From a virus, in IMG/VR virus record IMGVR_UViG_3300001679_000055, positions 1 through 53,852 of that record: a DNA stretch of 53,852 nt, one strand, 5' to 3'. A program made the translations under genes and the position numbers. The notes under the pieces were generated by a model. That model ran no database searches and was not told the DNA's origin. It was given only the letters and a program-made list of their open reading frames with translations. The first letter of the stretch is position 1, and every line of letters starts with the position of its first letter. Positions 14,491-36,201 of the stretch are shown here, in pieces.

Positions 14491-14559
14491 ACCGAGTATT
14501 CACAGAAGCTACCCTGTGACTATTCTTTCATTCCAGGTAGCATTAAAACGGAGAATATT

Positions 14560-14964
14560 ATGGGCTTACTAGCTATTAATAACACAGAAACAACTAAAGC
14601 TTACAACAACGATAAAGTAATCTACATCAAGATTACTGGTCAAGAGAAGTCAGCACAATTTAAACCAAGTAAGGCATTTGAGAACATTGTATCTAACGCA
14701 GACGTGTTGAAGATTATTACTAAGGGTGACATTCGTCCTACTAAAGCTAATGACAAGGGTTATGTTAACTTTGTACTAGGTAATGGTACTAATCAATTTG
14801 GTTTCATTAATTACTTAGAAAACTCTCTAGGTAATGACTCAACTGATGATGATAAGACAGAAGCTTTATTCGCTGTAGAGGCTAAGCTATCACAAGTAAC
14901 TCTTGATGATATCAGCAGACCACTAACTGCAGATGAAGCACGTAACGCACTAGACATGCTGTAA
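14560..14964 (+). CDS. Conserved-looking hypothetical protein before RNA polymerase
   Basis: A 134-residue soluble protein with a mixed alpha/beta pattern (KVIYIKITGQEKSAQFKPSK, then GYVNFVLGNGTNQFGFINYL). It is separated from the RNA polymerase gene by a hairpin with T-rich tail, so it may be made in excess over the polymerase. N4 RNAPII needs a small partner that binds single-stranded DNA (gp2); this protein is one candidate by position, with no motif to prove it. Confidence 0.75.
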   Translation: MGLLAINNTETTKAYNNDKVIYIKITGQEKSAQFKPSKAFENIVSNADVLKIITKGDIRPTKANDKGYVNFVLGNGTNQFGFINYLENSLGNDSTDDDKTEALFAVEAKLSQVTLDDISRPLTADEARNALDML

Positions 14965-16931: not shown

Positions 16932-16944
16932 CGTCCTCCGGACG
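16932..16944 (+). promoter_or_regulatory. Candidate vRNAP hairpin promoter with TCC loop (P-E3)
   Basis: CGTCC - TCC - GGACG: a 5-base stem with a 3-base loop, 84 bases before the 17029 gene. On the template strand the loop reads GGA, the same shape and loop reported for N4 early promoters. The same TCC loop is at 21305 and 34958. A CTTTTTT run follows, so a second reading as an intrinsic terminator is possible. Confidence 0.5.
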
Positions 16945-19210: not shown

Positions 19211-19287
19211 GCCCCTTTAGCTCAGTTGGTTAGAGCATCCGACTCATAATCGGCAGGTCGTTAGTTCAAGTCTAACAAGGGGCACCA
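19211..19287 (+). tRNA. tRNA with CAU anticodon, probably tRNA-Ile2
   Basis: A full cloverleaf of 77 bases with an encoded CCA end. Acceptor GCCCCTT / AAGGGGC, D stem GCTC/GAGC, anticodon loop CTCATAA (anticodon CAT), variable AGGTC, T arm GTTAG-TTCAAGT-CTAAC, discriminator A. The lowest anticodon-stem pair is T27-C43, a mismatch. The body (CGACTCATAATCG, then GGTCG and TTCAAGTC) is closer to the E. coli minor isoleucine tRNA (CAU, lysidine-modified, reads AUA) than to elongator Met. AUA-rich phage genes would profit from it. Confidence 0.9.
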
Positions 19288-21304: not shown

Positions 21305-21319
21305 GTGGTCTCCGACCAC
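21305..21319 (+). promoter_or_regulatory. Candidate vRNAP hairpin promoter with TCC loop (P-E4)
   Basis: GTGGTC - TCC - GACCAC: a perfect 6-base stem with 3-base loop, 36 bases before the 21355 gene, between two plus-strand genes. It is not followed by a T-run, so it is not an intrinsic terminator. The template-strand loop GGA equals that of N4 early promoters. Confidence 0.65.
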
Positions 21320-33800: not shown

Positions 33801-33969
33801 ACAATATTGTATATCTGCAGAAGATATGTTTGATGAGGATGTAGGAATTATTCTTGCAGACGTTTGGGAAGAAGAGTATCCTATTCAAGATAGCTTAAAA
33901 ATTCTTGAGGAGATTACCAATAATGAAAGTAGTATTTCATGTAACACCTGTACCAGCAGCAAGACCTAG
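33760..33969 (+). CDS. 69-residue acidic hypothetical protein
   Basis: A 69-residue acidic protein, ATG at 33760 with GGGAAG upstream. It overlaps both neighbours (41 and 47 bases), which is unusual in this genome. The sequence (CWPDGTGKQYCISAEDMFDE) looks like a folded protein. The overlap with RusA is out of frame. Confidence 0.5.
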   Translation: MNKGKFCWPDGTGKQYCISAEDMFDEDVGIILADVWEEEYPIQDSLKILEEITNNESSISCNTCTSSKT

Positions 33970-34315
33970 AGTGACTAGATGGTCTACCTTCTACCCAAAG
34001 AAATATACAGAATTCAAAGCAGCTATGGAAATAGCTAAAAGTGATATACATTGTGTACCTTTAGAGAACAACGTATACGCTAAATTAGACTTCTTTGTTA
34101 AGATCCCTATGTCGTGGTCTAAAAAGAAAAAAGAGTCGAAACTGGGTAAATATTGTGATAATAATGCAGATATTGATAATTACTGTAAAGCCATAATGGA
34201 TTCCTTAAACGGGAAATATTATTTAGATGACAGGCAGGTAGTAATGTTACGTGCCCGTATGTTTTGGTCTAACACCCCAAGAATCCAATGTGAGTTTTTA
34301 CCAATACAAGAGTAG
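33923..34315 (+). CDS. rusA: RusA-type Holliday junction resolvase
   Basis: A 130-residue endonuclease. It carries the RusA signature NADIDNYCKAIMDSLNG and YYLDDRQV, in which the three catalytic Asp of the family lie; the N-terminal PVPAARPRVTRW is also typical. It would resolve branched replication intermediates before packaging. Start chosen at ATG 33923 with GAGGAG 11 bases upstream, rather than an in-frame start at 33905. Confidence 0.9.
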   Translation: MKVVFHVTPVPAARPRVTRWSTFYPKKYTEFKAAMEIAKSDIHCVPLENNVYAKLDFFVKIPMSWSKKKKESKLGKYCDNNADIDNYCKAIMDSLNGKYYLDDRQVVMLRARMFWSNTPRIQCEFLPIQE

Positions 34316-34318
34316 ATT

Positions 34319-34510
34319 ATGAAAAACTTATCTAGAGAAGAATTATGCGAAGCACTAGCTGAAGACTATGCAGATAGAGCAGCAAAAGGTGGAAACGATT
34401 ACACTAAGTCATACGTACATTACTTAGAAAGGTGTTTATTACGCAAAACTACAGATTTACTACAACAATATAAAGTACAAGGATTACATAATTTAGGCTT
34501 TATATTTTAA
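34319..34510 (+). CDS. Small hypothetical protein after rusA
   Basis: A 63-residue helical protein (REELCEALAEDYADRAAKGG), ATG at 34319 three bases after the rusA stop. The family is not recognised. It is the last clear gene before the structured region upstream of SSB. Confidence 0.65.
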   Translation: MKNLSREELCEALAEDYADRAAKGGNDYTKSYVHYLERCLLRKTTDLLQQYKVQGLHNLGFIF

Positions 34511-34517
34511 ATTCGGT

Positions 34518-34976
34518 ATGTAGATGGTGAAACGTCTTTGGGAGGGTTTACTCTTGAGGAATAGAGCCCACCTACATGCTGAGAATGTTAACACATTAGT
34601 TGAAGATGAATACGCCATCTCTAGCCCGAAGACTAAACTTCCTAGGGCCAGGTTCATAAGACGGTAAAGGTTGCTACCGTGCGTATAAGTAACCACTTAA
34701 GCCAAGGTTCCGAGTGGATTACTTTCATTTACACTCTCCCACCTTAATGAAGGTTCGTATGTTTCCTAAGATGCTGTAAAACATACCCCCCTTTCTTTTA
34801 ACTCTCAGGAGCATAAAGCAAAGTTGACGGCCTGGCTCACTCCGATATGGAGCCTCTAATTTAAGAACACATAAGTACGTCGGTCCTGTTGGCCAACTCC
34901 TTGTTAAGAGCTAGTTTGAGAGTACTAGTGTGTACAAACTCTCACCAAACTATAACTAAGGGTTCTCCGAACCCTT
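34518..34976 (+). ncRNA. Candidate structured non-coding RNA before SSB
   Basis: A 459-base stretch with no convincing gene but many stems: 34518-34527 with 34568-34577 (9 of 10 paired); ACGGTA / TACCGT at 34661-34680; AAGGT / ACCTT enclosing GAGTG / CACTC at 34704-34745; GTATGTTT / AAACATAC at 34757-34786; GGCTC / GAGCC at 34834-34854; the palindrome GTTGGCCAAC at 34888; TGAGAGT / ACTCTCA at 34917-34944; and a final 8-base stem with TCC loop at 34958-34976. A 47-codon ATG frame at 34524-34667 lacks a ribosome site. Density of stems suggests an RNA gene or long leader. No known RNA family was recognised. Confidence 0.5.
34958..34976 (+). promoter_or_regulatory. Candidate vRNAP hairpin promoter with TCC loop before SSB (P-E5)
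   Basis: AAGGGTTC - TCC - GAACCCTT: a perfect 8-base stem with 3-base loop, 88 bases before the SSB ATG. No T-run follows, so it is not a standard terminator. The loop equals those at 16937 and 21311. If active, SSB would be made from entry onward by the virion polymerase. Confidence 0.6.
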
Positions 34977-35064
34977 TGTAAGAAATTAATTTAAAACGCT
35001 ATAGAGTATGTTGTCAACTTTATGGTTTTCTATTATCGACAACAATTACAAAAAGGAAAATATT

Positions 35065-35778
35065 ATGAATTTTGGAAACCTAAAAATTGATGATGATGTT
35101 AAATTAGATGAAGATACCGTTGGTGGTGGTTCATTTACGTGGGACTCTGGTGTATACGATTGTATCGTGGACATGGCATACTTAGACGAGTCTAAAGGTG
35201 GAGCTATGGGCTTACATGTAACTTTGTTAAATGGCACTAAGAAGATGAAAGAAACTTTATGGATCACTTCAGGTGAACTAAAAGGTCAGAAATCTACATA
35301 CATTGATGCTAAAGGCACTAAACGCCCATTGCCTGGATATACACAAGGTTTAAACCTTTGTATGTCTGCTATTGATTTAACTTTAGAAGACGCAGCTAAT
35401 GCATCTGAAGCTAAAACAATCAACATATACAACTTTGATGCTAAAAAAGAGATGCCTACTGCTAAAGAACATGTAATGACTAACCTAATTGGTAAAAAAG
35501 TTAAAGTTGGTATTATTAAGCGTATCGAGAATAAGCGCGGTAATGATGGTACTGGTAAATACGTTGACTTACCTGAAACTCGTGAAGTAAATGTAATCTC
35601 ACAATTCTTTTATGCTGACACTGGCTTATCCGTAATGGAAAAAGCTAAAGGTGATACTGAAGCTAAGTTTATTGAAACGTGGACAGCGGCTAATGCAGGT
35701 AAAACTCATGACCGTTCTAAAAAAGTTAAAGATTCTGTAGCTACTCCAGCAGCAGGCACTAAAAAACTATTCGGTTAA
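35065..35778 (+). CDS. Single-stranded DNA-binding protein (N4 gp45 type)
   Basis: A 237-residue protein similar in size, order and pattern to N4 SSB: FGNLKIDDDVKLDEDTVGGG near the N-terminus, then a beta-rich OB-like core (YDCIVDMAYLDESKGGAMGL, VTLLNGTKKMKETLWI), and a basic/Ala C-terminal tail ending KKLFG. In N4 this protein is needed for replication and recombination and activates late transcription by host polymerase. Start chosen at ATG 35065, with AAAGGA upstream, rather than an in-frame start at 35008. Confidence 0.88.
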   Translation: MNFGNLKIDDDVKLDEDTVGGGSFTWDSGVYDCIVDMAYLDESKGGAMGLHVTLLNGTKKMKETLWITSGELKGQKSTYIDAKGTKRPLPGYTQGLNLCMSAIDLTLEDAANASEAKTINIYNFDAKKEMPTAKEHVMTNLIGKKVKVGIIKRIENKRGNDGTGKYVDLPETREVNVISQFFYADTGLSVMEKAKGDTEAKFIETWTAANAGKTHDRSKKVKDSVATPAAGTKKLFG

Positions 35779-35788
35779 GGGGTTAGGT

Positions 35789-36028
35789 ATGAAAATTAGT
35801 TTAAATAGACATGATCTTCATACTGCTATCCGCGAGTATCTAACTCACCGTAATATCGCTACAGATACTACAGAGTTAGATATTTCTATTAAAGCTGTTA
35901 AGGGTGGTCAACCCTCAGCTGATATTAGTGTCGTGGATAACGTATCAACTAATCATAACCCAATAGATACTACTGAAAGCACCCAGAAGACGGACTCACC
36001 ATTTGGTGATCGCCTGAAAGGTGTGTAG
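35789..36028 (+). CDS. Small hypothetical protein after SSB
   Basis: A 79-residue protein; residues 1-35 look folded, the rest is Ser/Thr/Asp-rich and probably disordered, ending FGDRLKGV. AAGGGG upstream. The TAG stop shares a base with the following GTG start. Function unknown. Confidence 0.7.
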   Translation: MKISLNRHDLHTAIREYLTHRNIATDTTELDISIKAVKGGQPSADISVVDNVSTNHNPIDTTESTQKTDSPFGDRLKGV

Positions 36029-36201
36029 TGAGTAACTGGTTAGAACACGTTAAGCTACTACTGTTCACAATTTTGTTATCTGGGGTAGTGATCGCTGGCA
36101 TTGTATTAGCAGCGATTGCCATCCCTATAGTGATAGGTATAGGTATTGTATTAGCTAGTTACGTAACTATACGAGTCTTAAATGAAGACTCAAAACACTA
36201 A
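36028..36201 (+). CDS. 57-residue membrane protein (GTG start)
   Basis: A short frame starting GTG at 36028, coupled to the preceding stop. Residues about 9-45 are a long hydrophobic stretch, enough for two closely spaced membrane helices (LLLFTILLSGVVIAGIVLAA, then IAIPIVIGIGIVLASYV), and the tail is charged. It is the last plus-strand gene, one base from the end of the convergent virion polymerase gene. A holin-like or membrane-remodelling role is possible by shape only. Confidence 0.65.
   Translation: MSNWLEHVKLLLFTILLSGVVIAGIVLAAIAIPIVIGIGIVLASYVTIRVLNEDSKH
36173..36191. terminator. Hairpin at convergent operon ends
   Basis: GAGTCTT - AAATG - AAGACTC: a perfect 7-base stem with 5-base loop, inside the last codons of the membrane gene and 12 bases from the vRNAP stop. 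No T-run on either side, so if it terminates it does so weakly; it may mark or protect both convergent mRNA ends. Confidence 0.4.

Follow-up and report, generated by a model that had tools for sequence, protein, structure and literature searches.

Two candidate structured RNA elements of separate inheritance between RusA-p63 and ssb in an uncultured N4-like phage

On balance, we favour the view that two neighbouring RNA elements, each inherited on its own, lie in the gap at 34511-35064 in the phage genome analysed here and belong to its rightward replication transcript: element A (34511-34950, + strand), a modular RNA that goes with RusA-p63, and element B, a putative operator of ssb composed of a hairpin (34958-34976) and a pseudoknot (34999-35043). 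The window is the whole of IMG/VR virus record IMGVR_UViG_3300001679_000055, 53,852 bases from an uncultured phage. The initial annotation had singled out positions 34518-34976 as a phage ncRNA, a replication origin or a long regulatory leader. The first proposal holds for 34511-34950 only, as a structured RNA inherited with RusA-p63; the leader proposal applies to 34958-35043 only, inherited with ssb, and is largely refuted for 34511-34950. The interval as drawn stops short of the pseudoknot at 34999-35043, which has the strongest support of any structure in the gap. An origin found no support, as conserved G-U pairs and H-type pseudoknots indicate + strand RNA and not a DNA cruciform.

Genome setting and structure of the gap

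Judged by its genes, the window phage is N4-like (Schitoviridae-type): it carries DNA polymerase A, an N4-type primase, Sak4, RusA, an N4-type SSB and an N4-like RNA polymerase. A leftward ORF of 3803 aa is a candidate giant virion RNA polymerase, a label resting on its size, its place and its relatives. The gap lies within the rightward replication operon, with p63 upstream and ssb downstream. The gene for a RusA-like Holliday junction resolvase (33926-34315, +; PF05866, 1.6e-26; phrog_140) is followed by the 63-aa gene p63 (34319-34510, +; phrog_28972), and at every locus examined, across several phage kinds, RusA is immediately upstream of p63. The predicted fold of p63 has three helices (AlphaFold2 pLDDT 88.6), and comparison of this predicted structure with the PDB gave no match at E <= 0.001. 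The downstream gene encodes an N4-type single-strand DNA-binding protein (ssb, 35065-35778, +; phrog_743, 1.6e-57), its start (ATG 35065) having been fixed by homolog alignment. No conserved gene was found within 34511-35064, and the gap is non-coding as originally claimed.

Relatives were gathered from IMG/VR through protein and DNA-motif searches. Clade I consists of L003, L006, L007, L021 and L024, all with element A right after p63; clade II consists of L048, L049, L050, L052, L058 and L062, with a related structured RNA between RusA-p63 and ssb. A further record, L002, is identical to the window across the gap. The counts given below draw on four to eight distinct sequences per element, the permutation shuffles leave common ancestry in, and helix arms were placed by hand in several counts (the P1/module B/pseudoknot set, the C-TCC-G hairpin and the 14560 leader).

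The description of the gap as highly structured was borne out by comparison with homologs, through covariation, and not by folding energy, which is unexceptional. For the whole stretch z is -2.3 (+ strand) and -1.8 (- strand). In a composition-corrected window scan most of the gap region was ordinary; its best 200-nt stretch (34451-34650) reached z = -2.55, and over 25 further 200-nt stretches in the window, most of them coding, deviate more strongly. The G+C content of the region is 43% vs 38%, and 3.7% of 450-nt stretches reach 43%. As far as the alignments tell, above-chance structure in the reported interval is a matter of covariation, which was found in helix P1, the outer helix of module B and the 3' pseudoknot. 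The + strand stretch of the window most stable for its composition is 36001-36200 (z -4.1), where rightward and leftward operons meet, perhaps a two-way terminator.

Rfam/Infernal searches gave zero matches at gathering and permissive thresholds, blastn against cultured phages found no similar DNA, and nothing was found in the prokaryote genomes searched. Motif scans of IMG/VR returned the same phages plus chance matches, most of them in coding-like DNA. The cultured Schitoviridae N4, LIT1, Pollock, VBP47, SBP1, Philippe and pYD6-A are without a comparable gap or leader at ssb, and the literature search found no description of such RNAs in Schitoviridae. Going by Rfam and the literature searched, the RusA-p63-linked RNA is undescribed.

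Element A and its modules

Element A starts 1-10 nt past the p63 stop. Its first helix, P1 (34517-34527 with 34568-34578, +), showed two-sided changes in 5 of 10 pairs by the tool count and in 6 of 11 with hand-set arms; its covariation score was reached by none of 500 shuffles, and pairing collapsed in shifted registers. Enclosed by it is an inner hairpin, TTTGGGAG/CTCTTGAG (34537-34544 with 34551-34558, +), with three conserved G-U pairs, which argue for + strand RNA. Stop-codon readthrough at p63 was considered and rejected by eye: the stop codons vary and the following frame is not kept. A P1-like hairpin stands alone behind p63 in ten loci of other, non-N4 phages, and nine of these ten were among the 13 sub-threshold matches of the P1 model R1 (built on clade I) in 330 kb. 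These nine lie at that one place, which supports homology by position, though none is individually significant. Non-N4 phages (L025, L026, L028, L031, L036, L046, L053-L055 and L057) have, behind RusA-p63-P1, a TATAAT-like promoter, a small gene that is ribbon-helix-helix-like by eye, and then leftward genes.

Module B (34603-34690, +) is a three-way junction. Its outer helix, ATACGC/GCGTAT (34610-34615 with 34681-34686, +), has two-sided changes in 5 of 6 pairs (7 sequences, both clades); its hairpin ACGGTA/TACCGT (34661-34666 with 34675-34680, +) is too invariant for covariation. A model of the module built on clade II only, R2, detected the second L021 copy at E 2.9e-4 and the L003 copy at E 0.046, and placed the window copy correctly yet non-significantly (E 6.3). 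Module X (34704-34786, +) combines nested AAGGT/ACCTT and GAGTG/CACTC pairings with a hairpin, GTATGTTT/AAACATAC (34757-34764 with 34779-34786, +), and is confined to the window and L003, two sequences being too few for covariation. Module D (34797-34859, +) has a conserved CTCNNAGGAGCATAAAGCAAAGTTGAC and an H-type pseudoknot, formed by CGG/CCG with GGCTC/GAGCC in the window and by CTAG/CTAG with GGACA/TGTCC in other phages.

Module C (34879-34946, +) contains a hairpin GGTC/GGCC (34882-34894), the segment CTCCTTGTT and the 3' H-type pseudoknot, in which CTAG 34911-34914 pairs with 34925-34928 and GAGAGT 34918-34923 with ACTCTC 34938-34943. All cells of this pseudoknot are paired, 3 of 10 pairs show two-sided changes, and register slides give 28-50%; its H-type layout recurs, with different sequences, in modules D and E. 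Modules D and C may also pair at long range through AGGAG/CTCCT, with no two-sided change seen by eye. The stems named in the initial annotation are all present: AAGGT/ACCTT within 34704-34745, GTATGTTT/AAACATAC at 34757-34786 and TGAGAGT/ACTCTCA at 34917-34944. ACTCTCA does occur at both 34801 and 34938, as had been noted, but the switch proposed between the two copies is rejected because the first copy does not covary: it ignores the changes of TGAGAGT in L006, L021 and L007, and the second copy tracks them.

The order of modules is P1-B-X-D-C in the window and L003, P1-D-C in L006, P1-hairpin-D-C in L024, P1-D-E in L007 and P1-B-B-C-D-E in L021. This comparison shows, at the level of aligned sequence, that the parts of element A (P1, three-way junctions and H-type pseudoknots) have been gained, lost and duplicated between phages. 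In clade II a further structured stretch (L048:3570-3640, same place in L050, L058 and L062) lies between a small basic gene and the C-TCC-G hairpin, with GTTAGGGCA...TGTCCTAAC and GCTAGTCCTAGAGGCTAGCAAGGCTACAGCC showing compensating changes by eye.

Element A follows p63 before ssb in the window, L003, L006 and L007. In L021 and L024 the element and the RusA-p63 cassette sit before an exonuclease gene, which is without a pseudoknot leader. The L021 genome has ssb elsewhere, with a leader that has the C-TCC-G hairpin and a pseudoknot and is without element A. The comparison of loci thus shows element A to be a modular structured RNA inherited with RusA-p63 and not with ssb; it is probably not the ssb leader because ssb in the L021 genome has B without A, and A precedes the exonuclease gene in L021 and L024. 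Within the middle transcript, element A probably forms a stable, structured RNA. It may persist as a stable, perhaps processed RNA with its 5' end at P1, and might act with the RusA-p63 products or in trans, not as an ssb leader; these steps of the proposed mechanism are weaker than those for element B.

The ssb leader and a second pseudoknot leader

Element B begins with a hairpin, AAGGGTTC-TCC-GAACCCTT (34958-34976, +), in which the C-TCC-G loop is constant and the stem changes. Its stem ends on the + strand with just TTTG, and a terminator scan flagged the - strand only; T runs after the hairpin are longer in L006 and L021, and a weak terminator is an alternative reading of it. Further intergenic + strand C-TCC-G hairpins were seen in the window at 16932-16944 and 21305-21319 and in LIT1 (L009) at 1695-1711; possibly they are terminators or polymerase promoters.

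Behind the hairpin lies an H-type pseudoknot (34999-35043, +), with S1 formed by 34999-35007 and 35017-35025 and S2 by 35010-35015 and 35038-35043. Among H-type candidates on the + strand of the window it scores highest; since scores of this size can also arise in shuffled sequence, the case is carried by covariation. Across 8 phages 95% of cells are paired; two-sided changes occur in 8 of 15 pairs and in both stems, none of 500 shuffles matches and register slides give 33-48%. The conserved G-U pairs of element A and of the ssb leader indicate + strand RNA. The ssb leader of the L021 genome (L068) is less certain, since an equally good pseudoknot turned up in 4% of shuffled leaders. Combined, the alignments show that hairpin and pseudoknot constitute the ssb leader and are inherited with ssb.

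Autoregulation of the T4 SSB through an RNA pseudoknot is textbook biology. At T4 gene 32, cooperative binding of SSB is nucleated by the operator pseudoknot and blocks initiation (PMC535899). Element B shares with the T4/RB69 gene 32 operator an H-type pseudoknot in a phage ssb leader, upstream of the ribosome site (PMC535899), and its layout of pseudoknot, short A/U-rich segment, ribosome site and ssb suggests, by analogy, autogenous repression. The T4 protein belongs to the gp32 family, whereas the window SSB is of an unrelated family (phrog_743, N4 type); the pseudoknot measures about 28 nt in T4 and 45 nt in the window; and more than 40 unstructured nt with UUAAA/UAAA repeats separate pseudoknot and start in T4, compared with 21 nt (AATTACAAAAAGGAAAATATT) and no UAAA in the window, some relatives' ssb leaders having one UUAAA. 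The window also differs from T4 gene 32 in having a second gene, at 14560, with a like leader. Most likely, element B works like the T4 gene 32 operator, through SSB autorepression; we say "works like" and not "is a" T4 operator because spacing, UUAAA repeats and SSB family differ. As a translational operator it would be bound, at the pseudoknot beside the ribosome site, by a protein, most likely SSB, and bound SSB would stop translation of ssb when the single-stranded DNA has been covered, in the manner of T4 gp32. N4 SSB redirects the host polymerase to late promoters (PMC3715699); because it activates late transcription its dose matters, which gives a reason for control.

The model of the ssb-leader pseudoknot recovered the ssb leaders; it also gave a weak match (E 2.6), whose end coincides with the 14560 start codon. 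Here a second leader pseudoknot (14500-14541, +) is formed by S1 14500-14505 with 14514-14519 and S2 14508-14513 with 14536-14541, before ATG 14560. In the window and five related records (L080-L084) 12 of 12 pairs form and 11 of 12 show two-sided changes. The conserved pseudoknot of like layout means that leaders of this kind stand before at least two genes. The gene behind it, p134 (134 aa, 14560-14964, +), lies just upstream of the N4-like RNA polymerase gene (15052) and has homologs in the 5 related records; it had no PHROG match, its AlphaFold2 model (pLDDT 35.6) is unusable, and identity with N4 gp2 was rejected for want of profile similarity. The 14560 leader may be under the same control as the ssb leader or a sister control; that p134 and ssb share one regulator is a guess, because p134 is not known as an ssDNA-binding protein.

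Alternative readings and implications

That the stretch encodes a small protein, or is untranslated filler with chance stems, is barely credible: a frame of 47 codons (34524-34667) does occur and the folding energy is unremarkable, but the frame, rightly called weak in the initial annotation, is not kept in homologs (stop after 10 codons in L003, no ATG in L006), and sequence changes track base pairs. It is very improbable, too, that the gap is a DNA element, whether a replication origin, a cruciform or, at the 34958 hairpin, a promoter of the virion RNA polymerase. C-TCC-G hairpins are on the + strand and mostly intergenic, and the 34958 hairpin resembles N4 vRNAP promoters in its 3-nt loop, template-strand GGA and C-G closing pair (criteria in PMC4496689), giving the template-strand C-GGA-G loop that these require (PMC4496689, PMC3715699). 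It differs in lying in a mid-genome middle operon, N4 vRNAP promoters being located in the early region (PMC4496689), and in its 8-bp stem. The -8G of these promoters is essential (PMC3715699); template -8 is T in the window, -8G being present in clade II, and a vRNAP promoter at 34958 was rejected on this ground. The G-U pairs and pseudoknots of A and B suit RNA, not DNA.

A single long regulatory leader of ssb would fit the position of the whole gap upstream of ssb in the window, L003, L006 and L007, and the element B part is an ssb leader; we nevertheless find this improbable, and for element A the comparison of loci largely refutes it, given the exonuclease gene behind A in L021 and L024, the ssb with B and without A in the L021 genome, and a small gene between A and ssb in L003, L006 and L007. 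Element A could instead serve the small gene that follows as its operator: the last pseudoknot of A, the UAAUUAAA segment and the ribosome site would copy the T4 gene 32 layout, and SSB would repress the small gene too. The order of last pseudoknot, ACC(U/A)AAUUA... (UAAUUAAA-like), ribosome site and small gene is found in L003, L006, L007, L021 and L024. We judge this unlikely: the small genes are of two unrelated kinds (42 aa and 59 aa), the window has lost the small gene and kept the RNA, and upstream modules and P1-only versions are left unexplained. Doubtful, if a shade less so, is the idea that A belongs with ornate phage RNAs such as ROOL and GOLLD, standing free and forming, during infection, a particle of RNA alone or of RNA and protein. 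Like these large pseudoknotted phage RNAs (PMC12286853), element A is large, multi-domain, pseudoknotted and phage-encoded, with variable 5' modules and without a fixed downstream gene. It is, however, shorter (about 240 to 550 nt by eye), has shuffled modules, is linked to RusA-p63, gave no match to the ROOL/GOLLD Rfam covariance models, and varies in module make-up beyond what a particle would suggest. ROOL/GOLLD are often encoded near a tRNA island (PMC12286853), and A is away from one, the sole window tRNA being a tRNA-Met (CAT) at 19211-19287, between early genes and 15 kb from the gap. Several H-type pseudoknots in a row also recall tmRNA, for which ARAGORN and Rfam searches found none; element A has no tRNA-like end and no tag frame.

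In phage N4 itself, the 1.5-kb gap between gp47 and gp48 (L013:4114-5632, phage N4 32113-33631) contains four tRNAs and, between them, non-tRNA stretches with long perfect stems, e.g. TTAGTGAACACACTA...TAGTGTGTTCACTAA, possibly structured RNAs.

Beyond the two-element reading, we put forward more tentatively, and at somewhat less than even chances, a pseudoknot-leader regulon, in which one phage protein (SSB or other) would read the alike, sequence-unrelated H-type pseudoknots before ssb and 14560 and so tie replication to the transcription programme, with RusA-p63 accompanied by a new RNA class evolving by module shuffling. The natural deletions and duplications of element A are ready-made constructs for finding its function, and the natural leader variants could be used to test recognition of RNA by shape by SSB. 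If the reading is true, a second, unrelated phage group would have pseudoknot leaders at ssb and at a further gene, a convergent use of such leaders.
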